From positions 248,001 to 312,000 of the forward strand of contig NADL03000471.1 of assembly GCA_002205965.3 (NCBI GenBank): a DNA stretch of 64,000 nt, read 5' to 3'. Below the pieces are notes generated by a model that saw nothing but the letters and a program-made list of their open reading frames with translations, had not been told where the DNA came from and ran no database searches. Made by a program: the position numbers and the translations under genes. The DNA is from Kappaphycus alvarezii. Its lineage: Eukaryota; Rhodophyta; Florideophyceae; Gigartinales; Solieriaceae. Of this stretch, positions 2,306 through 52,488 are shown one piece after another (within the stretch, counting starts at the first letter, position 1; every line of letters begins with the position of its first letter).

Positions 2306-2980
2306 ATACTGTACGATTCGCATTGTGTGGCACGTGCAGTACTGTACTTGGAATACAGTAATCTACGTACCACACGCTCCCCCGCTGAGGGTGCGCTGCC
2401 GCCCCGGCCGTACCGCACAAATACAGTGCGCAGCCAAATTGTTTTTTTTCCTTCCCACCCAAGCCCCGCTCATGCCGCGCAGTCCTTCCCGGAGCCTTCT
2501 ACTTCCCACTACTGCACGCACCTACTCCGGCGCATTCTCCTCCCCACTACTGCATGCACCCACTCCGGCGCGTTCTCCTCCCCACTGTTGCACGCACCCA
2601 CTCCGGCGCCTTTTCCTCTCCCTTGCGTTTGTGTCAGAGTCCTTCCCCTTCGGCGAGCAAGCGAACGCTGAGACGTGCCTTGGTGCAATAAGATTGCCGG
2701 CATACTCGCGGGAGCGCGCGAGACGACGGCGAGGGGCAAATTCACGTAAGCAAGGGGTGGGGAAGGCCACCTGAGGTGGGAGAGGCGTGGCCTCCCGATC
2801 TCTGCTCTTTCTCGCCGCCTTCGCTCTCCTCTTGCAAACAGCATTTCCAACCCTAAATCTCCTGTTTTTTCCTCCTTCTTATTCTGTTCCGTCTCACTCT
2901 TTCCCCACTGCTTCTGTGTTTCCTTCCATCGTCATCTTTCCTTCGCAGACCCGACGAGCGTCGCGATCTACCTCCGCCGA
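2306..2980. other. GC-rich non-coding leader with minisatellite
   Basis: Overlapping open frames occur on both strands but reflect high GC rather than a recognisable protein. A 38-bp unit beginning CCCACTACTGCACGC is repeated three times (2505, 2543, 2581). From about 2860 to 2947 the plus strand is strongly pyrimidine-rich and ends in CAG, as before a splice acceptor or promoter-proximal leader. On the minus strand the same bases form a purine tract. Confidence 0.5.
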
Positions 2981-4261
2981 ATTTCACAAACACTACAGAC
3001 GGCCGCCAAGAGCAAAGGGGGTACGGCCTGTCGCGGTCAGCTGGCCGCGAAAGCGGCACGGATCTCCCCACTGACCGCCTCCCAGCTCACTTGCTCGGAG
3101 GCTGCCAGTCTAGTCGGACACCACGACTCCGTCAAAATTTCGTTCCGTGAAGGCTCTCCATTCCATTTCAAAGTATACTGCGAAAGATCGCCGACACCGA
3201 CTTCAGTGAGAGAGGATGAGTTCTGCCCCCTCTTCGGTCGGCAAATTGCGCCCTTTGTGCGCGCTTTCGACATAAAGGAGATGACGTTCGACGACGCGTA
3301 GGCTCTTGGTCTTAATGAGTCAACCGATGACCGCTGCTTGCACACGTCGATTCCCGAGGGTGCGTGGTCAATACTCGACGTTTGCTGGTGCAGTGAGGAC
3401 AAGGTCTACCGGGCGACCGACGAAGGGACAGGGGAGACCCACGGAATTCTCCTCTATACTCTGGCCTTCGAGGGTTATGCAGAAGAGTAGCACCACAACT
3501 TCGACTCCGATAGAATCGAGCTTAGTCATTCCGATCGGATTGGAGCAGTCCTGTGTATCCATTCCTGGTGTCAACGCCATCCGAACAGGAAATTGGTTCT
3601 CTCATTTACTCGATCTCGACAGCCTCGTTCGGTTCCACGGTCCCACCGTTTCCTACCCCTTTGTCGGGTACCATTCACTGGCAGTCATGAGGGTTGCATC
3701 GGCACGTCCATCGCCAACGGTCTGACCGAGCTCGGGGATAAAGACCAGGCGCAGAAGTGGTTCGGGACCTTTCGCACTTTGGCGGAAACCAACCGGCATG
3801 ATCCCTCTGCCGATAGTCGCGTACGTGACCTTCGCGACGCCCAGAAGCACCTCCCTCCGAGGAACTTGGTCCCGCAGAGGGTCTTGCCGCTGAACGCATC
3901 GGCGTCCTCCCTTCTTCGCCCTCTTGCGGGAGTCTACATCGCTACGTTAGCCGGTTCGATCGGTGTTAGCCACTATGTTGCGGTGAACGTCGGACTGAAA
4001 GGACTCCTAGACCCTTCCGTATCCCACGTGCTAGAACTCTATGTATAAGCTTTGAAAGAGTGCGTCGGCAGGATTTCGTAGTTCTACTCCATTCGCGAGG
4101 TAAGGAGGTTGGTGATCCTCTTGGGGCACACCTCTAAGCGCCCCTGTCACCGCGAAGGAGGAAACCGGACCAAGTGGAAGCGCGAGGCCCGTGAGGGGGC
4201 CATGCGGGACCCTTCATCTAGCACTCGACTTACCCTCCGGACGTGGGCGATATTCCAATAA
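2981..4261 (+). pseudogene. Broken ORF with histone H3 tail-like N-terminus, antisense to the gypsy element
   Basis: One frame runs from 2981 to TAA at 4259-4261 (about 426 codons) with only four internal stops (3299, 3488, 4046, 4079), far fewer than expected by chance. Codons 1-31 match the start of histone H3: the start codon position is ATT where ATG is expected, then 18 of 30 tail residues are identical, including Q5-T6-A7, K9-S10, G12-G13, R17, Q19-L20-A21, K23-A24-A25-R26 and S28. K4, K14, K18 and K27 are replaced. Beyond residue 30 the histone fold is not recognisable; the rest is a mixed-composition protein I cannot assign. The frame converges on the gypsy pol end (4333), leaving about 70 bp between them. 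That is the position of antisense ORFs known between pol and the 3' LTR in some Ty3 elements. It could also be an unrelated decayed gene. Confidence 0.6.
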
Positions 4262-4332
4262 GTTACATTGATTCTACTTCCATTCCTCCCATTTTTATGC
4301 TCCATTCTTCTACTTGCTCCTCCATGCTTCCT

Positions 4333-5531
4333 TTAATGAAATTCTGCCCTTCTGTAGTACCGGACCAGCCTGCGAGCGTGCATCGCCTTGCGTGTCACCC
4401 GACCAGTGGACAATAGGAGCTCGTAACGGAGCTGATTGGCCTTCGTTACTCTGCACGGCCCGTAAAGGAACGACTCAAACGCCGGCCACTTCTTATTCAT
4501 ACGGAAAGCCGTTCCATGGGCGACGAGAACTTCGTCTCTTACCGCGAACTTCTTCACGCGGCCCTTTGGCTCCCGTAAAGTATTGGGCCTTTCCACCATA
4601 ACGGCGCGCAGTCGCGATTCCCCCAAGATCTCCACGACTCTATTTGTCGCGCTGTCCTCATTCAGTAGGGCCACCGCGTCACTCGCGAACATCCTTGGCT
4701 TGATGCCGTACAGCATTTGGAAGGGAGAGGGGGCCGTCGGACGGTCGCGCCTCGGTAACCATACAACACTTTCGGGAGTGCCTCCGCTCAGTCCCCCCGT
4801 TCCCAACAATAGACCTCTCGATCGCGTGCTTGAGAGTTCCTACCATCCTTTCCACTCTCCTGTTAGCAATCGGGGCGTAAGGGAGAACAGCCTTTCACTC
4901 CACTCCATGTTCGTTCATAAAGCTCTGGACCGACGCGGCCAGAAATGCCGTCGCAATGTCAGACACGATCTTCTTCGGGGCCCGAATGTTCATATTATCT
5001 CATCCTTGACGAACTTGATCAAAATGTCCGAAGTGAAATTCATTGTCGCCCACGCAATCAACAAACCAGCCATGTGTTCCACTGCGATTAACGCGAACCT
5101 CTTTTCGACTTTCGACATCTTGAATGGCCCAGCAAAGCCAATTGAAAACGTTTCGAAGATTCCGGTGACGGGAGCCCTTAGTTTTTGTGGTAGGTCGGAA
5201 GCCTGTGAGCATATTGACAGCCATCTCATACCGGGACGTATTCCGTGATGTCGCGGTACACTCCTAGCCAACAGAAGCGATCTCTGACAAACTTTCGTGT
5301 TGATCCAACGTCCCAGTGTCCTATATCGGCGTGAAATGTTGCTAGAATCTCGGCGCGTTGCCCCAGCGGGGGCATGACGCGTAGCCCCTCCTTCTCCCGC
5401 CGGAACAGTGTGTCTTTCCAGAGCATAAACTTCTTCGCGTTCCTCTTTATCGCAGTCTTCTTCTTTTTATCCGTTTCTTGGATCGATTCCCCTGCCAAGA
5501 ACCTTGCCACATTTAGTAGCCCCGGTTCCAA
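4333..5531 (-). pseudogene. Gypsy integrase
   Basis: An H-A-D-I-G-H zinc-binding start (5226-5531) is followed by a catalytic core at 4830-5271. The first catalytic Asp (usual F-S-I-D-F) is Gly (F-S-I-G-F, codon at 5137-5139). The second Asp (I-V-S-D) and the Glu (R-R-V-E-R-M) remain. The C-terminal part (4333-4809) has the G-P-C-R-V segment of a GPY/F domain and a basic end (A-R-R-L-V-R-Y-Y-R-R). At least four breaks separate the pieces. The missing Asp should abolish strand transfer independently of the stops. Confidence 0.85.
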
Positions 5532-6960
5532 GCCGCGAGTCTGGGATCAGCCCAACATAAAGTGACTAGTAATCCTTCTGAGAGGTTCTCCGCCTTGTCT
5601 TCTCCATGCTTCCGGCCGCCAGTAGGCCTGCGCGAAAGATAATCGGCCGCCCCATTGGCGACACCAGGCCAATACTTCACCTCGAAATCGTACTCGGCCA
5701 TTAGATCCAACCACTTGGTGAGCCGCCCGTGAATTTCCTTCTTCTTAAACGCTGTCTGCAGGCATTGATGGTCCGTGTAAACCAAAAACGGCTTGTCAGA
5801 CAGGAGATACACTCGGAACTTCTTAACGGCAAACAGTACAGCGAGAGCCTCCCGCTCGCTCGTTGAATAGCGGCGCTCCTGTTACATCATCTTCCTTGAC
5901 GCGAATTGGATGGGTTGCCCCTTTCCGTCCTCCTTCGTATGGGAGAGTACCACTCCGAGTGCGGACGAAGACGCGTCTGTCTCCACTATGAAAGGGGAGT
6001 CGAAGTCCGGGAACAATAGAGCTGGTGGCGTAGTCAGCTTTTCCTTAAGGTACTCAAATGCCTCCTGCATCTCCGGAGTCTACTTGAAAGCATTCTTAAC
6101 TGATGTTACCGGGTGCAGCACAGCAGAACTATCTTCAAAGTTCTTGATGAAGCGCCGGTAGTACCCCACCAGCCCGAGAAAACTCCTCAACTCGGTCATA
6201 TTCTTCGCTTCGGTGGCTTCCATTATATCCTTAATCTTGTAGTTATCGACCTTTATACCCGTCCCGTTGACCACGTGACCAAGCAACTTGACCTCCAAGT
6301 GCGCAAAACTGCATTTTGTCACCTTAATCTTCAGTCCTGCCTCTTGAATTCTTTTGAAAACCTCCTGCCAATGGCCTACGTGTTCTTCCATTGTCTGCGA
6401 GAAGATGACCACGTCATCTAGATACACCATGGCGGAGGGTAGGTCTCGGAGAACTTCGTCCATCATTCGTTGGAACGTCGCAGGGGCGTTCGTTAGCCCG
6501 ACTGGCATGACCTCGAACTTGTACGTTCCATACCTAGAAACAAATTTAGTCTTCTCCTTGCAACTTTCGGCCACCCGTGCCTGCCAATATCATGTATACA
6601 GATCCAGAGTTGTAAAGACCTTCGAACCAGACAGATCGTCGAACAGCTCCTCGATCTTCGGTAGTGGCCAGCGGCCTGGTTACATCACCCTATTCAACTG
6701 TTAGTAATAGACGCAGAACCTGGGCCTCCCGTCCTTCTTTGTCGCTATGACCACAGGAAACGACCAAGCGGAGCTCGAAAGCGTAATGAGTCCCGCTTCT
6801 AGCAACTCCCCAACCTCCTTCTTGACGACAGCGTTGTGTTTCGGCGGCATCCGGCGAGCATTCATATGGATCGGGTGTCATCAATCAGATCGAAGTAGTG
6901 TACTACCGGGACCTTGGCAGATTCCAGGTGGTGGATGTCCCAGGTGATCACGTCGGTATC
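5513..6960 (-). pseudogene. Gypsy reverse transcriptase and RNase H
   Basis: The minus strand encodes R-M-P-P-K-H and A-G-L-I near 6800, then F-E-V-M-P-V-G-L-T-N-A-P-A-T-F-Q, an intact catalytic Y-L-D-D box (6413-6424) and L-R-S-F-L-G-L-V-G-Y-Y-R-R-F-I. The RNase H segment is at 5882-6070 (V-E-T-D-A-S-S-S-A-L-G) and 5513-5812 (Y-T-D-H-Q-C-L, W-P-G-V-A-N-G-A-A-D-Y-L-S-R). Stops at about 6680, 6580, 6080 and 5882 separate otherwise co-linear blocks. The frame is well preserved, but no full-length enzyme is possible. Confidence 0.9.
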
Positions 6961-6997: not shown

Positions 6998-7441
6998 TCA
7001 AGGTGCTTCGCTCTGCCGTTCTGCTTCCTCATCCTCCACGGCGGAGTCCACCTCTGCATCATTGCCTTCCAGATCGGTCTCGTACGGCTCTTCATTCAAG
7101 ATCGGCAGCACGAGCTCTTGTTCTGCGTCCGATCCGTCGTCGCTACCTCCTGACTCCGAGGACGATGAAGTCTTAAACTGCTCACTCCCTGATTCCTCCA
7201 CGGATGTAAAATCCTCGCTATCGGTGCGAGATCTGTCTACCACCGGCGACTCGCAAGGAAGGGGCAGGAGGACCTTCTGCTTCCCTGCTGCCAAAGAAAC
7301 TTGTTGGTGACCGTAATCCAGTTTTGCCTGCATGGATTCCAGGGTGCGGCTGCCGACTATCGCGTCAAACCGCGCATTTCGTAGCACCAAGAAACGCAAG
7401 GGCACCACCAAAGTTCCAAAAGAGACTGGTACCTCCTGCAC
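6998..7441 (-). pseudogene. Protease C-terminal half and acidic linker
   Basis: 147 codons read on the minus strand. The first ~60 residues (R-F-D-A-I-V-G, D-Y-G-H-Q) look like the second lobe of the protease fold. A strongly acidic, serine-rich stretch of about 80 residues (S-E-D-F-T-S-V-E-E-S-G-S-E and S-E-S-G-G-S-D-D-G-S-D) joins the protease to the reverse transcriptase. Such a linker is common in this element type, and its role is unknown. Confidence 0.65.
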
Positions 7442-7483
7442 ACACCCAATAACTTGAGCAACCGTTCCACCGGCGACGGTGAC

Positions 7484-7915
7484 CTAACGGTCAGTGGCTG
7501 TCAGGTCGAGTGCCAGTCTCTCGCAGAAGTCCCAAGAGATCAAATTATGAACTGCACCCGTGTCCAACAAGGCATGCGTCTCCGTCCCATAAGCCTTCAC
7601 GGCTACAACCTTCAACCGAGGAGGGCCATCGGTCTGATTCGACGTGCAGGTTTGAATGACTGGGACAGTCTTGGAGACTAAACGCTTCAACTGTTTGCTC
7701 ACATCGTCAGCGTCCCCGCGGAGAAGCTGCCCAAAGTTAATTCCTGAAAAGGCCGAAGCCAACTCCGCAACCACATTGTACTTCCCAACATGGTCCTGGA
7801 GGGCGCCGGATGCCTTCTTGGTCTTCCTCATCTTGCATTTCTTCTTCTGAGAGGCCGGAATCACTATCAGCGGGCGGATGACAGGGGCCTTATTCTTCAG
7901 CGTGTCGATGTCCAT
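7484..7915 (-). pseudogene. Gypsy aspartic protease
   Basis: A minus-strand frame of 143 codons begins at an ATG at 7915. It has a lysine-rich linker, then L-L-D-T-G-A-V-H-N-L-I-S, the D-T-G-A active-site loop of retroviral-type aspartic proteases. It is in a different frame from gag. The protease would mature the Gag-Pol polyprotein. A stop directly follows the segment. Confidence 0.8.
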
Positions 7916-8970
7916 AACATTATCTCTACGCTATTTCCGAAGGGCTCGGACATCGGCACTCCTCTTCGCCGCGGCCACCACATCGCCCTTGCGAGACTCC
8001 TTAACGACAATAACAGGACCATCGCCGCCCTTCTCTTCCATTTGGAGTTCCTCTTTCGACTCCGAGCTTGCCCCTGCGATTCCAACGTGTCGGCCTTCAC
8101 TCTGACGCTCTTATGACCAGCACGTTGCCTCCGAGTGGCCTCTCATCCCACAGAAGGAGCAAAGGGTATTCCTGTGGGGATTTCGGGGCACCATGTGGCA
8201 CGGTGTCCCTTTTGCCGGCAGAAACTGCAACTATAGTCCTCGTCAATAGCTGCCGCCGGTCCTGCATTCCCGAACTATTTCTTCACAAAGAGGTAAAACT
8301 CCGCGACCTGACCTGCAAGCTGGTCGACCTTCTCTTCCAGCTGAGGCGGCTTCATGACGCGAGCTTTAGGCCTCTGCAGAATCCTTCTTGGGGCTATCGG
8401 CGGCTCCATAGCTGCAAATTGATCGGAGGGAAAAGCTTTCTTGCCAGCCTGAAAGTCTTCTATCGCCTTCTTGAGCCCATTATAGTCTTTGGGGGTCCGA
8501 AACATGAAAAATTGTGCCAAATCCGGTTGCCCCACCACTGCTTTTTGAAGAAGCCCGAACGATACCATGTCATTGAAGCCGACCCTCTTTTATAGAGCTT
8601 TAAGTCGCGCAAGAAACCCCCCTATGTCTCCGGCCTTGATTCCAGCGCTCAAAACCTCGTGAAGCTCTTCTTCCGGGCTTACCTTCTCACTGAATTCCGT
8701 GAGCAGCATCTTCTTCACAACATCATAATTCTTCGCCTCTTCGGTGAGCGACCCGTCGCTTGCAAAAGCGCCATAGTAGACGTCAAATGCAGCCCCATCC
8801 AAGTGGCAAAGGATCTAGAGGGCTTTCTCGTCGTCCGATTTACCTCTCGTCACGAAGTTCTCGAAAGCGAAAAGAAAACGGCGATGTCAGACGAGGGGAA
8901 CCATCGAAGGATAGTTAGGGATGATTTTTGTTGTCGTTTGTCATGTCGAACATTAGATGCGGTACCATGA
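7897..8970 (-). pseudogene. Gypsy gag with CCHC knuckle
   Basis: Capsid-like reading frame on the minus strand. It runs from roughly 8960 through S-D-D-E-K-A-L, H-L-D-G-A-A-F (near 8800) and the helical segment ending at about 8590. It resumes in the neighbouring frame at 8568 (M-V-S-F-G-L-L) with a K-A-F-P and proline-rich tail to 8275. A CCHC zinc knuckle, C-S-F-C-R-Q-K-G-H-R-A-T-W-C, lies at 8198-8229. A basic R/K-rich end follows. Stops lie at the start (near 8820 and 8900), after the helical part and around the knuckle. The family role is RNA packaging and particle assembly; this copy is not translatable as one protein. Confidence 0.75.
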
Positions 8971-9027
8971 AATGCTTGTAATTTTCCTTTATTCCTTCCT
9001 GTCCTGTTTAGGCCAAGCGTAACCTAC

Positions 9028-9173
9028 CTCCCTCTATCATGGGCGCGGCACAGCACCGCGCTATATGTACTGTACTTTGCCGTGCTTCAAACCCTCACCC
9101 CTCTCCTGGCATGCAGCACGGAGATACGCCTGGAAACTTCCAGACGTATCTTCCCAGGGTGCGGCGCTGTACA
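9028..9173. repeat. 146-bp dispersed repeat, copy 2
   Basis: Partner of 2160-2305 in the same orientation, lying about 60 bp upstream of the gypsy gag. Its central palindrome has weaker arms than copy 1 because of substitutions (CACGGAGATACG against TATCTTCCCAGG). A GTAC-rich stretch (9170-9215) follows directly. Confidence 0.8.
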
Positions 9174-9652
9174 GTACCCTACATACCATAAGTACTGTAC
9201 AGTATAGTACTGTATATTTATACGTTTATCCTTTCTAGAAACCCTCTGCACGCAGACGACGTGGAACTCCTGACTACGTAATTTTTATCAAGCAGAGTAA
9301 ATCTAAGAAATGTATTGATAGGTAACCTACCATTAACATACAGTAAACGATTGAAGACGGTACCTGTAGATTGTATAAAATTTATTCTTTCAATGGGGTT
9401 TTCAATTCGATTTCTCAGGTAACTGCGCCGTTTCAGCGATACACGCAGTTTTTAACAGAAGGGGCAGACTGCCAGCAACCTCTCATCGACATAGAAAAGT
9501 GCGCGTTTGATGGTTTTCAAATCTTTCTTTTCTATTGGGCAGAATGGGATTCATCCGAGCCGCCACCAAAGATTCATGGCCGTTCATTGACGAGAAAATT
9601 ATGGAAAGTGGGTTTGAAAGCGGCTCGGAACGAGCGAGAGCGAAATGTAAGG
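9174..9652. other. no recognised gene
   Basis: GTAC-rich at its left end. A 113-codon frame at 9371-9712 (plus) resembles nothing I recognise, and its 3' part overlaps the inverted repeat at 9662, so it is not called as a gene. Confidence 0.4.
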
Positions 9653-25476: not shown

Positions 25477-25947
25477 GTGGGAAAACTAGTTGGTCCTCCA
25501 GACTTGGTGAATACTAAGGTGAGACCAGTAGTGAGTGTGAATAGATGTACCAATGAGCAGAGTGAAACTGTTGTGGAAATCACCGGAGTTAAATCATCAG
25601 AGGAGAGGAAAAAGTCGAGAATCTCCGAAGCCGAATCTAATGGAATCATGTCTAGTCATGATCACAGCATCCCCACTGATGGACCTATACCAGTGGAGAT
25701 TTTGTTAGTACTTGAAAATAGACTGAATGAAATAGCAGTCAAAGTACTAAAGGACGATGGATACAATACAAGCGTGGTTTCAGCCGATTTCCTGAAGCGA
25801 AATAGGAACTTGTTTGAGATTCGGCGTGAACGAGTCATTGTTTGTCATACACAGAACGGAGTTACTGAGGAGGTATCCGAGATCATTTACAACGGAGCTA
25901 TTAAGTTAGGCGAACATAATTATACTTCTAGTTGGGCTGTGTCCTAA
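25477..25947 (+). pseudogene. Ty3 protease region
   Basis: A 156-codon frame with I-A-V-K-V-L-K-D-D-G-Y-N-T-S-V-V-S. The position matches the active-site loop of the element's aspartic protease (usual V-L-I-D-S/T-G), but it reads D-D-G, so the conserved Ser/Thr is lost. It ends at TAA 25945-25947, and the rest of the domain continues in another frame. Confidence 0.65.
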
Positions 25948-25965
25948 ACCAGGCATGATGTTCGG

Positions 25966-26910
25966 TTGGGAATGCAGTGGCATTTTACCCAAAATCCACG
26001 TGTTGACTATCGGAAATGGATTGGGATGGTGAAAGGTGCTTCCATTCCAGTGATTTATCCCGATGACGAAAACCGTATTGATGTGTCCAATTCGGGAGTA
26101 AAGAAATTTAGACGAATGCTGAGGCATGGGGATGACTTCGAAGTGTTTCAGTTACTTGAAGTTCACTGTATGAGAGGAGTGACAGATTTAAAGTGCGATG
26201 GAAGACTGAGCAGATTACTGGATAATTTTAAAGAGCTCTTTCAGGATGAATTGCCAAGAGGTTTTCCTCCGATTCGACCAGTTGATCATGAGATTAAAGT
26301 GGAGGAAGGAGCAAAGGCACCTCATCGACTTTTGTTCCAGTTGTCTCCATCCGAACTTATGGCAACAAAAGAGTACGTCGAGTCTCTTTTGAGGAAAGGG
26401 AAGATCAGGTCCTTTAAATCATCATGTGGAGCAACCGCTTTTCTTTGTGAAAGAAAGGGATGGAAAACCTGAAGGTGTTGTCGATTATCGCGCTTTGAAT
26501 CACATCACCAAAAAGAATAATGCTCCACTCCCTCGTTCTGATGAAATACTCGATCGACTTGGAGATGCGAGATTTTCTCCAAGCTTGATCTGAAAACGGG
26601 ATTTCATCAGATAAGGGTGAAACCAGAGGACATCGAAAAGACTGCGTTCAATACAAAGTATGGGCAATTTGAATATCTTGTTATGCCAATGGGACTTTGC
26701 AACGCTCCTGCTCCGTTCCAAACTTTGATGAACCAGATCTTCTATGATTGCATCGATGTCTTCTTGGTTTTCTATATGGATGGTCTTCTTACATTCAGTA
26801 AGAATGAGGAAGAACATTACGAACATCTGGAAATTGTATTAATGAGACTTAAGGATCACAAGCTGTACATCTCTTCGAAGAAATGCTCCTTCTTTCAGAC
26901 TGAGCTGTAG
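25966..26910 (+). pseudogene. Ty3 reverse transcriptase
   Basis: Frame 25966-26472 has L-P-R-G-F-P-P-I-R-P-V-D-H-E-I, R-K-G-K-I-R and S-S-C-G-A-T-A-F. The next frame has V-V-D-Y-R-A-L-N and L-D-L-K-T-G-F-H-Q-I. From 26617 come F-E-Y-L-V-M-P-M-G-L-C-N-A-P and the active-site box F-Y-M-D-G-L-L (26773-26784), where the second Asp of Y-M-D-D is Gly (GGT at 26782). That substitution alone should abolish polymerase activity. A stop at 26908 follows, and the thumb and connection continue at 26913. Confidence 0.9.
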
Positions 26911-26912
26911 TT

Positions 26913-27657
26913 TTGGTTTTAATAGTCGAGAAGAACGGCATTCGTGTCAATGTCAATCCTGAGAAGCTCGAAGTCCTACAAACCTGGCCGAAACCTGAAT
27001 CTCTAACGAAGTTGAGAAGTTTTCTAGGTCTAATACAGTTTTTCCGTAGGTTCTTTCCGAAGTTCTCTGCAATTGCTGCACCTCTCACAGATCTGAAAAA
27101 GAAAGGTCGAAGTATTGGGAAATGGGATCAACATTGTGATAAAGCTTTCCAGAAGCTAAAGGATGCGATGGAATTGGCTCCAATCTTAGTTGCTCCTAAT
27201 TGGAAAAATCCATTTTGTGGACATGTAGATGCTTCACAGCTTGGTGTCGGTGGAACTCTAGCAGAGTTGGATGAAAATGGAAGGGATCGTGTAATTTCTT
27301 TCTATTCAAAGAAGTTTTCACCAACTGAGTCGGACTACACTGCAAATGACAGAGAGCTTCTCGCTTTGATTAATTTTCTGGGAAGATTCAGGTGCTATCT
27401 TGAAGGTTCTGAATTTGAGATTTTCACAGACAACCAGGTGCTTAAGAGCTTCTTCACAAAACTGTTCTGAGTTTGAGATTTTCACAGACAACCAGGTGCT
27501 TAAGAGCTTCCTCACAAAACCGAAACTGAGTCGGAAAGAAGAACGTTGGCTGGAAACTCCCGGTAACTTCGGAATCTTTCCCATCACACTGAAGCCTGGA
27601 AGAATTCACGTCTTGGGAGACGCATTATCCCGAGCTCCGCATGTGATGAGAGGAGAT
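26913..27657 (+). pseudogene. Ty3 RT connection and RNase H with tandem duplication
   Basis: L-R-S-F-L-G-L-I-Q-F-F-R-R-F, G-H-V-D-A-S-Q-L-G-V-G-G and N-D-R-E-L-L-A-L identify the RT tail and RNase H. The segment E-I-F-T-D-N-Q-V-L-K-S-F occurs twice because 58 bp are duplicated in tandem (27411-27468 and 27469-27526). Since 58 is not a multiple of three, the copy shifts the frame. It resumes as P-G-R-I-H-V-L-G-D-A-L-S-R, the conserved end of RNase H. Confidence 0.9.
27411..27526 (+). repeat. 58-bp tandem duplication in RNase H
   Basis: Two adjacent copies of GAATTTGAGATTTTCACAGA...CTGTTCT. The copies differ at only a few bases, so the duplication is younger than most of the element's decay. 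Confidence 0.9.
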
Positions 27658-28947
27658 CGTGAAGTCTCAGTAAATGACGTTGAATTTTCCTACCTTGATA
27701 TTGATCAGATCATTCCTCGGTATGCTGAAGACCAGTTCTTCGGTCCAGTGGTAAAAGCCATGGAAGGAGAGTGGCCAGAGGATATGTTTCAGAAGCAGCA
27801 ACTTAGAATTCTGCCGATGTTCCGAAAAGATGGTTCCAGGCTGTTTTATAGTGGAAAGTTGTGCGTACCAAGAAGTTCAGTTTCGGATATTTTGCAAATT
27901 GCTCACGACTCGAAAGTTGGTGGACATTTTAAATTTGCGAAGACACTGTCCAGATTAGATAACTTCCATTGGAAACGTAAGAGCCGGGATGTTCGAAAGT
28001 ATTGTGAAGGATGTCTCACGTGTCAGCAGTATAAGGGCTCTAATCAAAAAAAAATAGACTGATCCAATGTCACTGGAATTGCCTGACCGCAGATGGGGAT
28101 CATTAGCTACATATTTCATTTTGAGACTACCCCTGACGAAGAGCGGTCATGATGCGATCACGACTTGGGTTGATCAACTTACTCGTCGAGTCCATTTTCT
28201 GAAATCCAAAACATCAGATACTGCTGAGGACACGGCTCGAGACTCCTTCGCGAACATCTTCAAGAACCACGGGTTGCCGGAAGATTTGACCTCATATAGG
28301 GACAGCAAGTTCATTTCAAAGTTTTGGAAGACACTGATGAATCTTTGTGGGGTGAAATTAAAAATGTCTACAAGTAGACACCAAAAACAGATGGTGCTTC
28401 CGATATTATGAATAGGATGATCGAGAACTATCTCCTTTGCTATTGCTCGTATCATCAGGATGACTGGGATGAGCTGCTTCCTTCTGCAGAATTTGCATAC
28501 AACTCGGCTGTGAGCGATGATCTGGGTATGTCACCATTTGAGATGGACTTGGGATAGACACCTAAATCGCCATTGGACTTCTTGGCTAGCAGCAGCGTAC
28601 CTCTTCAGAGTTTGGAAGACTTTCGTGCCAAGCCCAAAGTTTCTCTTGAGGATGCGCAATTTGTCCAAAAAGTGGCAAAAGTTCAGCAAGCTGCATACGC
28701 TTCAAGGCGATACAAGGTTCCAGATTATAAAGTCGGTTCAAAGTCATGGATAAATCGTTCGTTGTTTACGGATGTTTATTCTAGGTCCCAGGATTCTAAA
28801 AGGCTTGGTGCGCGCAGATTTGGGCCATTTGTGGTTAAGGAGATAATTGGTAAGAATGCTGTTCGACTGGATCTCCCTGCTCATTTTAAAATCCACCGGG
28901 TCATTCATATCATTATATACCACGCCACATTTGGAGCAGCCCAATGA
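27658..28947 (+). pseudogene. Ty3 integrase
   Basis: The zinc-binding H-D-S-K-V-G-G-H and C-E-G-C-L-T-C motif ends at 28062. The core begins at 28067: the first catalytic Asp (usual A-T-D-F-I) is Tyr (L-A-T-Y-F-I), the second remains (Y-R-D-S-K-F), and the third reads D-G-A-S-D-I where D-G-A-S-E-I is usual. The C-terminal part has W-D-E-L-L-P-S-A-E-F-A-Y-N-S-A and G-A-R-R-F-G-P-F-V-V, the GPY/F domain, ending at TGA 28945-28947. Stops separate all blocks. Confidence 0.85.
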
Positions 28948-44922: not shown

Positions 44923-46329
44923 CTACATCTGTGACCCAGATGTAACAGTGACTCGGATGGGCGATATAGAGTTAGATCTGGCAATCGTCATCATCACCTC
45001 TAGTTCTAAATTTGAAGAAACTGTTACGTTATCCCCTTCATCATCCTCGTAAGTTATGTCAAGTGAACCAGTAAGTTTGAACAATTCACGTATCTGATCT
45101 GCGAAATTCTCATACACCAGTCCATTAGATATTGTAAAGCGGCGAACCAGAAAGACTCCTTCCTCTGATTTGAAACATGCCTTAACAGAATATGCCTTCG
45201 GCCCATTTCCAGTGTCCGGTTCCGCTTTTGCAGTCTTCCTTACAACCGTATCATTCCTTTCGAGGTCCAGCAGAGCCTCACAAGCCTCATTTTCGTTTGC
45301 ATCAATGACCCAATGAAGTGTGCGGGAAGTTTCACTCAAAAGGAGCTTGTTCTCCACCTTGGCTGCGGGTCCTTCGCCTTCGTTTCGCGTTGCAGCCTCT
45401 TGCCTTGCTATGTTCAAAGATATGGATGGCGACGTTCTCGACTCAGACTGCTGCGGTGATATCACGGCTTGGGATGGCGGAGCTGGGACATACTCAATAC
45501 AAGTGTCCGGACTCGTCGACACCTCCGTGATAGTCATGGGGCGTACGTCAGGCGTACTCAGAATTCTCGTACTATCCTTCTCTGAGGTTTTAAACCCGGT
45601 AACCGCGACCGGTTTCCAACCCGGCTTCGCCTCTGCAGACACACAGCCATCCTCACTCTGAAACAAAACCAACTGATGGCGTACATATCGCTTCGAGCAG
45701 GGGGTGCAAAGAGTTTTGAACCCATCCGGCCCAGTCCGCCATCGTGAAGACTCCCTTGCGCCGCACTTTCTGCACCACTGGCTTTCATCTTGTTTGGGAT
45801 CTTCGCGCGCATCATTCCCGGCGTCATGTTCGGCCTCTGGTTCCACTGCTGTAGGCAAAAGCGGCGCAACAACAGGTCGCAACAAGTTACGCTTTCCATC
45901 CGGATGCATCTCAAAGCCAATAACCGCAACTGCAGCGCTGCCCTCTTTGTTCGTTGCCGATATGTTACCGTCTTTGTCCCTGAATAAGGTCAGATTCATC
46001 TCTGCATAACTAAAGGCACAACGTGAGCACAAAGTCCGAAGGCCATCTGGACCTGTACGCCAGCGGGAGGTGCTTTTTGTTCGACATTTCCGGCACCAGT
46101 TTTCCACCTCCATGCGTCTACGCTTCCTGCCCTTGGAGGCGCTGGCATCATGTTGACGTTCCGAGGCAGCAACTGTGTTGCGCTTGCCTGCACTTGATCC
46201 TGTGCGATTATCCGTAGAACGCGACTCCTGCCTTTTATGCTCAAGGGACCCCGTCGGATTCTGCGCAGGTGCAAGGGAAGAATGTACTGAATTTCTTCTC
46301 GCGTGACGATGACGCACTTTTCGCGCCAT
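44923..46329 (-). CDS. GATA-type zinc-finger protein with PB1 domain
   Basis: An unbroken 468-residue protein starts at ATG (complement of 46327-46329; the open frame extends 22 codons upstream without an ATG) and ends at TAG (44923). The N-terminus is basic (R-K-R-R-R near 69-73, a possible nuclear signal). Two C-x2-C-x18-C-x2-C fingers follow: C79/C82/C101/C104 and C186/C189/C208/C211, both with S-x-R-W-R-T-G-P-D-G. Each is followed by a similar 45-residue segment (L-x-L-F-x-x-x-D-G-x-x-S-A and V-A-V-x-G-F), so the finger module is duplicated. Residues 379-466 form a PB1 domain with a basic K383 region and an acidic OPCA-like D-I-T-Y-E-D-D-E-G-D. PB1 domains pair in head-to-tail complexes. 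It is probably a nuclear transcription regulator that oligomerises. Individual partners and targets are unknown. No intron is evident, and there are no frame breaks, unlike every neighbour. Confidence 0.85.
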   Translation of the reverse strand: MARKVRHRHARRNSVHSSLAPAQNPTGSLEHKRQESRSTDNRTGSSAGKRNTVAASERQHDASASKGRKRRRMEVENWCRKCRTKSTSRWRTGPDGLRTLCSRCAFSYAEMNLTLFRDKDGNISATNKEGSAAVAVIGFEMHPDGKRNLLRPVVAPLLPTAVEPEAEHDAGNDAREDPKQDESQWCRKCGARESSRWRTGPDGFKTLCTPCSKRYVRHQLVLFQSEDGCVSAEAKPGWKPVAVTGFKTSEKDSTRILSTPDVRPMTITEVSTSPDTCIEYVPAPPSQAVISPQQSESRTSPSISLNIARQEAATRNEGEGPAAKVENKLLLSETSRTLHWVIDANENEACEALLDLERNDTVVRKTAKAEPDTGNGPKAYSVKACFKSEEGVFLVRRFTISNGLVYENFADQIRELFKLTGSLDITYEDDEGDNVTVSSNLELEVMMTIARSNSISPIRVTVTSGSQM

Positions 46330-49300
46330 GGAGAAAGATGCGTTTGCTCGTTTGCTCAATCTGGTTGGGGTGAAGGAGAGGGAGTCTTTGATCAAAGGGT
46401 CGGAATCGGGCAGGGAGGGCTACTGGCACGACGGATGGTGGTGGGGTCTTGGCAACTACACGAAGAAACGAAGCGCTGAAGTAGAGCGGTGGTTTGGAGT
46501 CCGGGGCTATAGAAATCCTGGCTTCCAGTAAACTACAGTCAAGCCCCGTCGAGCATAATTACGGCAATAAAAGATATTTCGGAATTGAAAGATTTGTTCC
46601 ACTGCGATTATTTGGTTTCATAAAAATTTGCTTAAAAGTTTTATACTTTTCACTCTCCTAATTTTTAATTTGGACAGCTGCAAATGTCTACGTTCGAATT
46701 GAATCTGTGATCATTTACCAACGGAAGCGAGAACATTTTCGGTACGGCGTCAGAGACAGTTGCGATGATCTTTTCCTTTTGCAATTCAAAGCGGCCAAAG
46801 CTTGAAATTGTCTTCATGAACTAGTTTCTTGGACGGATAAGGCTTTAGATTCCACGGGTGGTCTCTGTAATGAGGTTACAGCTTTTGTACATCTTTACAG
46901 CTTCACAGCCACTTTCGGGGAAAGATGCTTTACAACCACCAATATTTATCACCTAGGCATGGTAAACATTGCTCTGGCGCCTGACCGCACGCTCGCTACT
47001 TCAAGCTTTACTCAAACCCAAGAGTAGCACATCTTGGAGGCTTACACATTGATTATAAGCTACGGTAAACCATAGTGGCCAAAAAGTCATACTCACGGAC
47101 AATTAATCTTATCGATTGTACAGTACTTTATACAGCTTATTAAGGCCATGAATATACACAGCTATAATATGCTGATACAGTTCTTCATAAAAATCTCGAC
47201 TCATCAGGGTGAGGCATCAAGCTGTGGAGAACGAAAACACTCAACTCGTTGCAGTCCTAAACTGTGCGTTCCTGTCACGAATTGCATCAGATACATGCAG
47301 ATAGCCTAATGATCGTCCCAATCCAGATTCCTACAGGAAAATCACGCATGACTCCATGGAAACAAAAAGACTACCTATTCTGTGAAATCGATTATTGGCT
47401 AGTTGCTCCCCGCGGGACATATTGGTGTACAAAGCAGAAAGAGACGATGGAATTAACCGGGACGCAAAGAAAGAATCGTACATTGGGCCTTGTCTTGTAA
47501 TGTCATCTCATACTTGTTTGCACCATTTCTTTCAACTTACCATTGTGCACTTGCTCGGCAACACACAAGTGTTGGAAAGACGTGCCTGTAAAATTGGGGG
47601 ATAGAACCGGTTCTCTCTGTATCTATTAATGTTTTTGCTGCATCTCTCCTTCCCTGTTTCCTCCTGATTCATTTGCCTGGTCATCGAAATAGTTGCATGC
47701 AGAGAATGTGATTGTTAAGAACTCCCCGGGCAGAAACCTTGGCGCTGGTGGCACAATTAATCGGTAGCCATCACAAGGAGGTCTACTAATTCAAGCTAGA
47801 GGGTCGTCCTATGTAACATGTACAGTACGCAGTTGCAGTCGGGGTTTCGATCGAGTGTTTCTCAGTTTGAAGCACTGTATTCTGCGTTTCTCAGGTGGTT
47901 CATGTAAATCACCGTGCAAGGTTCATACTGTTTCTCTGAGAGGCACTTACCTTGGTAAACTCCTTCTCTCAAGGGTAATGATTGTTTCTCGCTTCATGGG
48001 CTCGGGTCAATGCACTGAATGATGGTCAATATCACGAGACGTATCGCAAGATCAGCGGTGCAAATATACAGGACTGAGCATCGAGTACACATCTATTCGT
48101 ACAATGGTGATAGCGCGTTGCACCTGTTACAATCGAAAGAACGTTTTTTTCGAAAAACTCTTCTGAAGCTACCTTGAATCGTAAACTGGGGTTTTCTTGC
48201 GACGGCTAGTGTCACAGAGAACTGGAAATGATGTTCAGGCTTACCACGCGACAGCGATCTTAAACGAAACAAAGGGAATGGGAGACCAGCAGGATGAGGT
48301 TCGAACTTTGGCAAAGTGTGATTGCAGTAAAGGCGATTGCTGCATTTTCAAAATTGTGGTGATTACTCTCAGAGGAGTTGATCCTGCGCACAAGAATTGT
48401 CATATTCAATCGTTCTTACAGGTATGTTGTCGCAACCGTACGACGATTCGCCTATTTTAAGCAACCCTTCGCGCTAAGTCTACTCAAATTGCTGGGAGTG
48501 CTGCCAAGATGGGCGGCAGTAAAATGGCCCGCGATTTCGAGCGCAAACAGCACCGCCGCCAACCCGCCCCGAATTTCACCCTCTACCCCACTGTTTACAA
48601 CTCCCTTGGCATCCCTTTCCATGCTGCAACTCGTCTCTTGACGACTTCATCCGCTGTGTTTTCGCTGGATTGTTTCACGGACCTACGGTCATCTAATGCG
48701 ATAGCTTGCCAGTCTGGCCTCCTCCCGCCGAGTGGTGACACGACAGATTCGGTTCCCGGAGTGCGTGGCCGCAACACCCCGTTGTGTCGATGCGCTATAC
48801 AAGACAACCCTAGAAATTAAAATTAATGAATTTTTTTGCACGCTGTACATTGCTGGTACAGTACAGTATATTGCGGAATTTTACAGTACGGACATGTGGA
48901 TCAATGAAGAAATTACAGAAAATTATTTTCACAGTCCCGTACGTCCAGTACTGTACGATAATGTTGCTGTCCGTATTGTGCCTTTTTACTCCTTATACTG
49001 TACGGTACACTATTGAACCGTCCACTGTACCAACACAAGATGTGGTTTGAAGGCGTTCTAACTGTAAGCACATGCAAGGCAGAACCAATTAGAAATTGTC
49101 ATGTACACACCACAAACCAGTAGAGTTCCCTTCAAACCTACGTATTGTAAAATATCATATCATACTCAAAAAAATTTATGGCATGGTAGAGGTACGAGTG
49201 CGGCCCATTCTGTACACTCAAGATAAGTAAAAAGAGTAAAAGATTCTCTCTTCTCTTGAGACCCTGCACTAAGTGTTGATACTGTACAGTATACATATTC

Positions 49301-51437: not shown

Positions 51438-52488
51438 CTAGGACTGGATACTGCGGAAAGGCATTGGAAGAATATACCCAAGTTGTTGGAATCTAGTAGC
51501 AATTCTATTACGTACCGTAGACTGCTCTCTAGAACGGTTCAAGTTCCTCTCGTATTCTTGATCTGTGTGCAAAGCGTTTTGTAAGTGCACAAAAGGTTGC
51601 CCTTGCACCCTGTTCTCATATGCCATATCGATACTGTTCTCAGTATCAAGCCCATCAGTTGATTGATCGATGATGAAGTTGTGAATTTTGCACGCAACGA
51701 TAACAACTAAGGCATCCTTTGCCAGTCCAAAGCGCAAAGGAGACCAAAATATTCCGAATCGTGTTACTAGAATTCCGAAAGCCTGTTCAACCGCAATTCG
51801 ACTTGAAGACAAAAAATAGTTAAAAGAGTCCTGCAACTGGGTAAGTCTCCTTCCACTGTACGGTGTAACGATATGACCACCATTTCTGTATGCATCATCC
51901 GCAGAAATTGCAGCCCAACTTGGTAAATCATTAGAAGACAGAAGGTCATGCAATTTAGTCGACTGAAAAGCAGTAGAGTCGTGAGTAGACCCGGCATTTC
52001 TTGCCGAAACAAACAGAAACTTTTAGTTCGCCCCAACGGCAGCATGTACACAAACTGCGAAAAAACCCTTCCAGTTGTAGTATTTCTCTTCGATCCGGGG
52101 TGTCCGACAACCTGGGCTGTTGGATAGCAATCGCTATTCCATCTAATGCGGCAATGATTCCGTACATCGGACTGCTCCTATTACGGCAAAAACGAGCAGT
52201 TTACTCCTGACACTCAGTCTCAGATTGCGGAAATGAAATAGGATCTAAACTCCTATTAAGTGCGCGGAGAGTCTGCGTGAATACCAGGTAAGCGGTTGTA
52301 GATCCAATTCCATACGGCCATCCGACGTCGAGACAGCTCGTTCCCGCAAGTATTTGTAAAGTGACGCACATCATTACCTCGACGGAAACGATAGATGCCT
52401 TCCTCGTATTTCTATTCAGACGACGTTGCAGTAAAGGGGATAGGAGGCGACACAACTTCGCAGACTGCTGTGTCGTTACAAGGTACAA
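51438..52488 (-). pseudogene. PIF/Harbinger DDE transposase
   Basis: Minus-strand pieces: N-terminal R-N-T-R-K-A-S-I-V-S-V-E (52201-52488), then I-I-A-A-L-D-G-I-A-I (first Asp, 51955-52167). Separated by a frameshift and a TAA near 52025, the third piece has S-A-D-D-A-Y-R-N-G-G-H-I-V-T-P-Y (second Asp) and S-R-I-A-V-E-Q-A-F-G-I-L (Glu). All three catalytic positions of a DDE_Tnp_4-type enzyme are retained. The protein would cut and join the ends. It ends tail-to-tail with the accessory ORF, only about 6 bp apart. Confidence 0.85.

Follow-up and report, generated by a model that had tools for sequence, protein, structure and literature searches.

The plus-strand frame at positions 2981–4261 of the window (the whole 64,000-nucleotide stretch of Kappaphycus alvarezii DNA analysed here) is a decayed copy of a gene that a Ty3/gypsy element carries on the strand opposite to pol, in the interval separating pol from the 3′ LTR, and the product of this gene resembles a histone mimic: it opens with a counterpart of the N-terminal tail of histone H3 and is not itself a histone, the fold being absent. 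At the sequence level, the tail, its presence in most of the copies examined, its linkage to the element, the constraint on its amino acids and the pattern of replacement at K9 and K27 are established. This antisense accessory ORF (aORF) may encode an accessory protein that displays an H3-tail decoy to silencing methyltransferases, a reading to which we assign a probability of about 0.45; we infer that the protein would be expressed, located in the nucleus, bound by these enzymes and beneficial to the element.

The frame and its H3-like tail

The aORF is a single reading frame, free of frameshifts, in which four internal stops (TAG at 3299, TAG at 3488, TAA at 4046 and TAG at 4079) precede a terminal TAA at 4259. 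A protein search returned a 399-residue relative, P0001 (E = 1e-39), the name of which looks like a transcriptome accession. The H3-like stretch occupies 2981–3067 (+) and extends from the position of the H3 Met to that of S28; aligned without gaps, 18 of 30 positions are identical to H3, with K9, S10, K23 and S28 retained and Ile in place of K27. The codon at the Met position is ATT (2981), and ATG stands at the same position in L009 (the same locus as L001), the nearest copy by DNA among the first eight. Both the four-stop plus-strand frame and the 18-of-30 match described in the original prediction were recovered when recounted in the sequence; its account of a stretch that keeps K9–S10, K23 and S28 and lacks the H3 fold was borne out by the alignment and by the histone-family searches, and the change from ATG to ATT that it had proposed for the start agrees with the codon found in L009. 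The observation of an H3 tail in the window is confirmed.

Searched against PDB sequences with phmmer, the window frame matches H3 at E = 0.0029. The BLOSUM62 score of the tail against H3 is 69. The best score reached was 42 when the window was dinucleotide-shuffled 200 times and 47 when the local region was shuffled 1000 times; permuting the 30-mer 200,000 times gave a maximum of 56, and shuffling the residues of the frame 3,000 times one of 39. For the tails of H4, H2A and H2B, no stretch of the window scores above 30. Profile searches gave no histone-family match for the window frame, nor for the naturally open frames of other copies, and no histone fold was found after the tail. G+C at codon position 2 is lower from about 3150 onwards, and this codon-position base composition suggests that the window frame was once coding; the H3-like stretch itself has no such dip at position 2 (0.60, 0.67, 0.60).

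The aORF protein, of about 400–475 residues, consists of Met-Ala at the head of an H3-tail mimic of about 29 residues, followed by a domain in which a Cys, a His and an Asp are conserved. These three residues form a candidate triad, encoded in the window copy at 3695–3697, 3971–3973 and 4010–4012 (all +): of 41 loci, 36 have Cys at the position of P0001 C221, 32 have His at that of H313 and 38 have Asp at that of D326; Asn occupies the position of N228 in 37. The order of the residues suggests that the domain following the tail is a candidate papain-like cysteine protease. The suggestion is drawn from the residues because the structure models failed: the mean pLDDT of the two predicted structures was 38 and 34.5, too poor to use, and Foldseek returned nothing from the PDB at E ≤ 0.001, an outcome given no weight here. 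Besides the H3 tail, no family match was found for the domain in Pfam, NCBIfam or the PDB, four naturally open frames being included in the Pfam set.

The Ty3/gypsy element and its relatives in the genome

Pfam matches on the minus strand reveal protease (a weak match), reverse transcriptase, RNase H and the H2C2 region of integrase, in the Ty3 order (PR–RT–RH–IN). An open piece at the gag position (8278–8589, placed by position only, with no Pfam match) is followed by two open pieces of the protease region at 7001–7930 (PF13650, E = 0.0014, and PF09668, E = 0.0031, both below the curated cut-off), by a reverse transcriptase piece at 6083–6589 (PF00078, E = 2.1e-24), by an RNase H piece at 5516–5881 (PF17917, E = 5.6e-18) and by integrase pieces at 4993–5546, which comprise the H2C2 zinc-binding region (PF17921, E = 5.7e-8) and a core region assigned by position only. 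The last piece on this strand, at 4336–4839, lies where the integrase C terminus is expected by position and matched neither a Pfam family nor a chromodomain; it is convergent with the aORF, and of the 40 other loci, 34 have relatives of it next to the aORF. Convergence on the minus-strand pol at a distance of about 70 bp had been predicted, and the last pol stop codon indeed starts at 4333, leaving a gap of 71 bp.

Two LTR-like direct repeats of about 200 bp each, about 6.9 kb apart and 91% identical over a 150-bp core, lie at about 2137–2345, on the 3′ LTR side of the minus-strand element, and at about 9014–9213, on the 5′ LTR side. Since they enclose the frame 2981–4261, the frame is inside the element. 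The leader between the LTR and the aORF contains three 38-bp tandem repeats (2489–2602) and, judging by motif (GTAAG at one end, a pyrimidine-rich stretch with CAG at the other), a possible intron of the antisense transcript at 2746–2948 (+). Both LTR-like repeats contain a near-perfect palindrome of about 36–38 bp (2250–2287 and 9120–9155), which could serve transcription in the sense as well as the antisense direction.

The layout proposed in the original prediction, an antisense ORF between gypsy pol and the 3′ LTR, is that of the window element, and its pol arrangement recurs in the family: pol is antisense to the ORF, beyond the 3′ end of the ORF and convergent with it in 35 of 41 loci, all found through the ORF itself and not through pol, with a gap to the integrase piece of 17–1017 bp (median 287). 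The stretches fetched for five of the 41 (L011, L022, L024, L025 and L033) contain no pol match. Another locus, L017, is mixed, its pol pieces being oriented in the same way as an antisense ORF that has no tail, and is probably rearranged. The LTR-like repeat of the window is found about 550–830 bp upstream of the tail in four of the 40 other loci (L009, L012, L014 and L044), all from the window's clade; sought with the window's repeat only, it was unmatched in the other 36.

The genome from which the window comes (336 Mb in 884 contigs) contains at least 107 matches to P0001 (104 of 733 candidates scored); these are matches rather than copies, since the window copy is among them and some represent neighbouring pieces of one copy (for example on C837, C122, C826 and C53). 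Sixty-one loci were examined: besides the window copy, 60 were taken from the remaining 106 matches, comprising the best 40 and 20 of 37 further ones aligned from P0001 residue 110 or earlier. With a score against H3 of at least 40 as the threshold for a tail and of at least 60 for a strong tail, an H3-like N-terminus, in register with H3 from its first residue, was found in 54 of the 61, with ATG at the position of the H3 Met in 39 of these 54. The threshold was reached on the ORF strand in 36 of the 41 loci made up of the window and the best 40, and in 18 of the 20 from the further set, the best tail score elsewhere in the same loci being 26.8 on average (one locus, L033, has a second, inverted tail). 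The two inverted tail regions of L033 lie near 2290 (+) and 2768 (−). In 26 of the 40 loci scored, the H3 match is better than that of the window copy, and a comparison of L013 with PDB sequences finds H3 at E = 2e-7. The 46 strong tails, whose DNAs are all distinct, are identical to H3 at 13–23 of 29 positions (median 19). Seven loci have no tail above the threshold (L015, L017, L028, L037, L041, L052 and L053), and remnants of one are present in L015, where they are in frame, and in L053. The genome search that had been proposed with the translated frame, here made with its relative, thus yielded copies of which most of those examined carry the tail, and the family-wide H3-tail ORF that had been envisaged was borne out by the loci examined in this genome.

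P0001, the only protein-search relative that covers the N-terminal part, begins without an H3 tail, so that not every member of the protein family has one. P0002, 223 residues long and derived from a public contig of 975 bases, matches the leader (2466–2762) and the C-terminal portion of the frame (3809–4280); it looks like an internal-deletion copy of the same repetitive element, since the leader is joined to the C-terminal part and the middle is missing. A third protein search found no relative besides P0001, and the viral and prokaryote contigs scanned yielded none.

Replacement and constraint in the tail

Among the 54 tails, the H3 residue is kept at A1 in 41, R2 in 37, T3 in 39, K4 in 39, Q5 in 48, A7 in 44 and R8 in 31; at S10 in 46, T11 in 48, G12 in 47, G13 in 46, A15 in 44, P16 in 47 and R17 in 39; and at A21 in 46, T22 in 36, K23 in 52, A24 in 48, A25 in 45 and R26 in 41. 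Substitutions at these kept sites include Arg for K4 (7) and Ser (9) or Ala (8) for R8. Elsewhere T6 has become Leu in 32 tails and L20 Ile in 41, position 14 is Arg in 26 and Lys in 18, and position 18 is Lys in 26 and Glu in 11. Residue 9 is Leu in 42 tails, Lys in 7, Phe in 2 and Met, Glu or Asn in one each, and residue 27 is Val in 21, Met in 16, Ile in 4, Phe in 4, Ala in 2, Thr in 2 and Asp, Ser, Asn, Gly or Lys in one each, so that most of the 54 tails have hydrophobic residues at the K9 and K27 positions, as inhibitors of the K-to-M type do. When retention of K4 and K23 is set against that of K9 and K27 in the 46 strong tails, Fisher's test gives p = 4e-29, a value that is only descriptive because the copies are related. 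The window's clade (the window, L009, L012, L014, L027 and L044) keeps K9 and has R8 changed to Ala; in a FastTree phylogeny of 41 copies, rooted on P0001 by a long branch and bearing no support values, it is nested inside K9L clades, which implies either repeated gains of K9L or a return to K9.

For 30 tails, comparison of all 435 pairs gave a pN of 0.255 against a pS of 0.651, with pN below pS in 423 pairs. Between subfamilies, for which nine naturally open frames from subfamilies A–E (letters of this analysis) were compared, the tails are 55% identical with a pN/pS of 0.39 and the bodies 33% identical with a pN/pS of 0.63, the ratios being ordinal because pS is near saturation. Since the tail has remained so much more similar than the rest while synonymous sites are near-saturated, selection has kept it, and the comparison of tail and rest for which the original prediction had called came out accordingly. 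In two of four pairs within subfamilies pN exceeds pS in the tail, as dead copies would give, so that the constraint is visible only in the deeper comparisons. The tail residues are spelled with many synonymous codons, and G12 uses all four. The codon distance of the tail mismatches to the H3 codons was also considered as evidence and rejected, since by permutation it is not lower than chance (6147 of 20,000 as low); under other nulls, 4 of 329 offsets were as low, an unfair comparison because mismatches are more numerous there, as were 475 of 20,000 draws of random frame codons.

Most copies are decayed; frames open from the tail ATG are found in L018 (475 codons) and L025 (421 codons). In nine of 27 ATG tails an in-frame stop lies 6–8 codons upstream of the ATG, and in these the protein therefore begins with the tail, unless splicing intervenes; four of the 27 have no in-frame stop within 100 codons. 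No preference in start context was seen among the 27, the base at −3 being G in 8, A in 8, T in 8 and C in 3. Removal of Met from a Met-Ala terminus exposes Ala1.

Possible roles of the tail and comparison with known systems

If the aORF product is a decoy, a large Ty3/gypsy family would carry, antisense between pol and the 3′ LTR, an accessory gene whose H3-like tail would enter the substrate site of H3-tail methyltransferases. In most copies this decoy would be unmethylatable at K9 (Leu) or at K27 (Val, Met, Ile or Phe), and its action is modelled on that of K-to-M histones with PRC2-type and K9-type SET enzymes; H3K9 and H3K27 methylation on the element would be lowered, and the element would escape silencing. 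That K9 and K27 are mostly replaced, and K4 and K23 mostly kept, points to decoying of the writers of silencing marks. K27I has been found in H3 in leukaemia. The SET domain of EZH2 is described as binding with high affinity to side chains that are linear and hydrophobic, those of Met and norleucine among them, and the H3K27M peptide as binding EZH2 16-fold better than the wild type and inhibiting it (PMC6562757); in Paramecium, transposons are repressed by a single Ez-type enzyme that makes the methyl marks at both K9 and K27 (PMC6586856). Against a decoy count the prevalence at residue 27 of Val, which is not a linear side chain, the retention of K9 in the window's own clade (with R8 changed to Ala), and the lack of a tail in P0001 and, above threshold, in seven of the 61 loci. 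It is tempting to speculate, at somewhat less than even odds, that the protein is an oncohistone-like weapon, in which the tail with hydrophobic residues at K9 and K27 would poison or decoy H3K9 and H3K27 methyltransferases and so shield the element, the protease-like domain forming a second arm.

Alternatively, the tail may be a bait for proteins that bind the extreme N terminus of H3 (PHD fingers, WDR5-like or LSD1-like proteins), which would be recruited or titrated. Such a bait might open chromatin at the element or tether the integration complex, with K9 and K27 replaced merely to avoid silencing marks of its own. Recruitment or titration of chromatin readers by the tail is possible, and SNAG–LSD1 offers a precedent for a bait resembling the H3 N terminus. 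The frequent Met (39 of 54) and Ala1 (41 of 54) would yield a free Ala1 as in H3, K4 (39 of 54) and Q5 (48 of 54) are kept, and another chromatin tether would be useful because the integrase end in the window lacks a chromodomain match. We nevertheless regard a bait as rather unlikely, as it fails to account for the retention, beyond the K4 end, of T11 (48), G12 (47), P16 (47), K23 (52) and A24 (48 of 54) and leaves unexplained the prevalence of hydrophobic residues over Arg among the replacements. Less probable still is that the tail serves as a self-substrate or propeptide of the linked protease-like domain, an enzyme that would clip host H3 and regulate itself through the mimic. Papain-like proteases clip H3 within residues 20–26, a block well kept in the tail, and the conservation of Cys, Asn, His and Asp (36, 37, 32 and 38 of 41 loci) would fit such an enzyme, but the domain has no family match in Pfam, NCBIfam or the PDB, its predicted models are unusable and the K9/K27 pattern is left unexplained.

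A fragment of the host H3 gene, captured once and inert, would explain why the histone fold is missing and why, in the copies displayed, the resemblance ends near residue 28. It would not explain why the tail residues are kept across subfamilies better than the body when synonymous sites are near-saturated, and we consider it very improbable; a host H3 pseudogene was rejected for the family on the grounds of this constraint. The original view of the tail as more than an isolated fragment of that gene stands for the family, in which an ORF of about 400 residues is headed by it in 54 of 61 loci and synonymous sites have diverged while the residues are kept. As for chance resemblance of an N-terminus rich in Ala and Lys, the window copy alone gives p of about 3e-6 per window (Gumbel fit), a value that leaves other motifs and windows uncounted, and the explanation was weighed seriously once P0001 proved to be tail-less. 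It was ruled out by the tails of the other copies, 54 of 61, many of them with ATG and with up to 23 of 29 identities, which reduce its likelihood to almost nothing.

Returning to a decoy of silencing methyltransferases, its nearest counterparts are of several kinds. The oncohistones H3K27M and H3K9M likewise have hydrophobic residues at K9 and/or K27; they are complete histones, whereas here the tail heads a non-histone protein and residue 27 is mostly Val and residue 9 mostly Leu. Pathogen mimics of the influenza NS1 type also place an H3-like stretch in the protein of a parasite. The NS1 mimic is a short C-terminal motif, in contrast to the approximately 29 residues that run in register from the initiator Met here, in a retrotransposon. 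An N-terminal, H3-like decoy is also present in SNAG-domain proteins, SNAIL1 for example; they are pseudo-substrates of LSD1 and host regulators, and their resemblance to H3 is much shorter. Chromoviruses are Ty3 elements that engage H3-tail biology too, but they read marked H3, whereas the present family carries the tail itself.

In genomic arrangement, the plant Ty3/gypsy elements Retand, Grande and RIRE2 (aORF-3R) are comparable, with the same antisense position and a long region between pol and the 3′ LTR (PMC7264820, PMC11963269). About half of recently active Retand elements have tandem repeats in that region, as is the case here, and Retand aORFs mostly encode TRP28 while that of PvRetro13 has an SMC domain, in contrast to the present domain, which has no Pfam match (PMC7264820, PMC11963269). 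TRP28 (PF04195), the mark of the Retand lineage, had no match in four naturally open frames. The word ‘histone’ occurs 0 times in PMC7264820 and PMC11963269 and is absent from the text of PMC5408684, which deals with bdelloid LTR elements with extra ORFs; a search of PMC6317226 for antisense ORFs found nothing. Among the matches listed from searches of open-access PMC full texts, none described an H3-tail mimic encoded by a transposon.

A review of plant LTR elements describes antisense accessory ORFs as having no known function (PMC7264820). Here such an ORF bears a readable signature, an H3 tail that selection has preserved and in which two silencing lysines are changed, which makes it testable whether transposons counter chromatin silencing with unmethylatable histone decoys. 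The natural variation at K9 and K27 is also a resource for the study of SET-domain specificity.

Across the whole window, neither a tRNA nor an Rfam family reaching the gathering score was found. A second, different gypsy element lies at 25477–28062 (+), with an RNase H match and no significant match to P0001. At 44923–46395 (−), a 490-codon open frame encodes a protein with two GATA zinc fingers and, at its C terminus, a PB1 domain; this protein is probably a host regulator. A fragment of a DDE_Tnp_4 (Harbinger-type) transposase is found at 51438–51953 (−).
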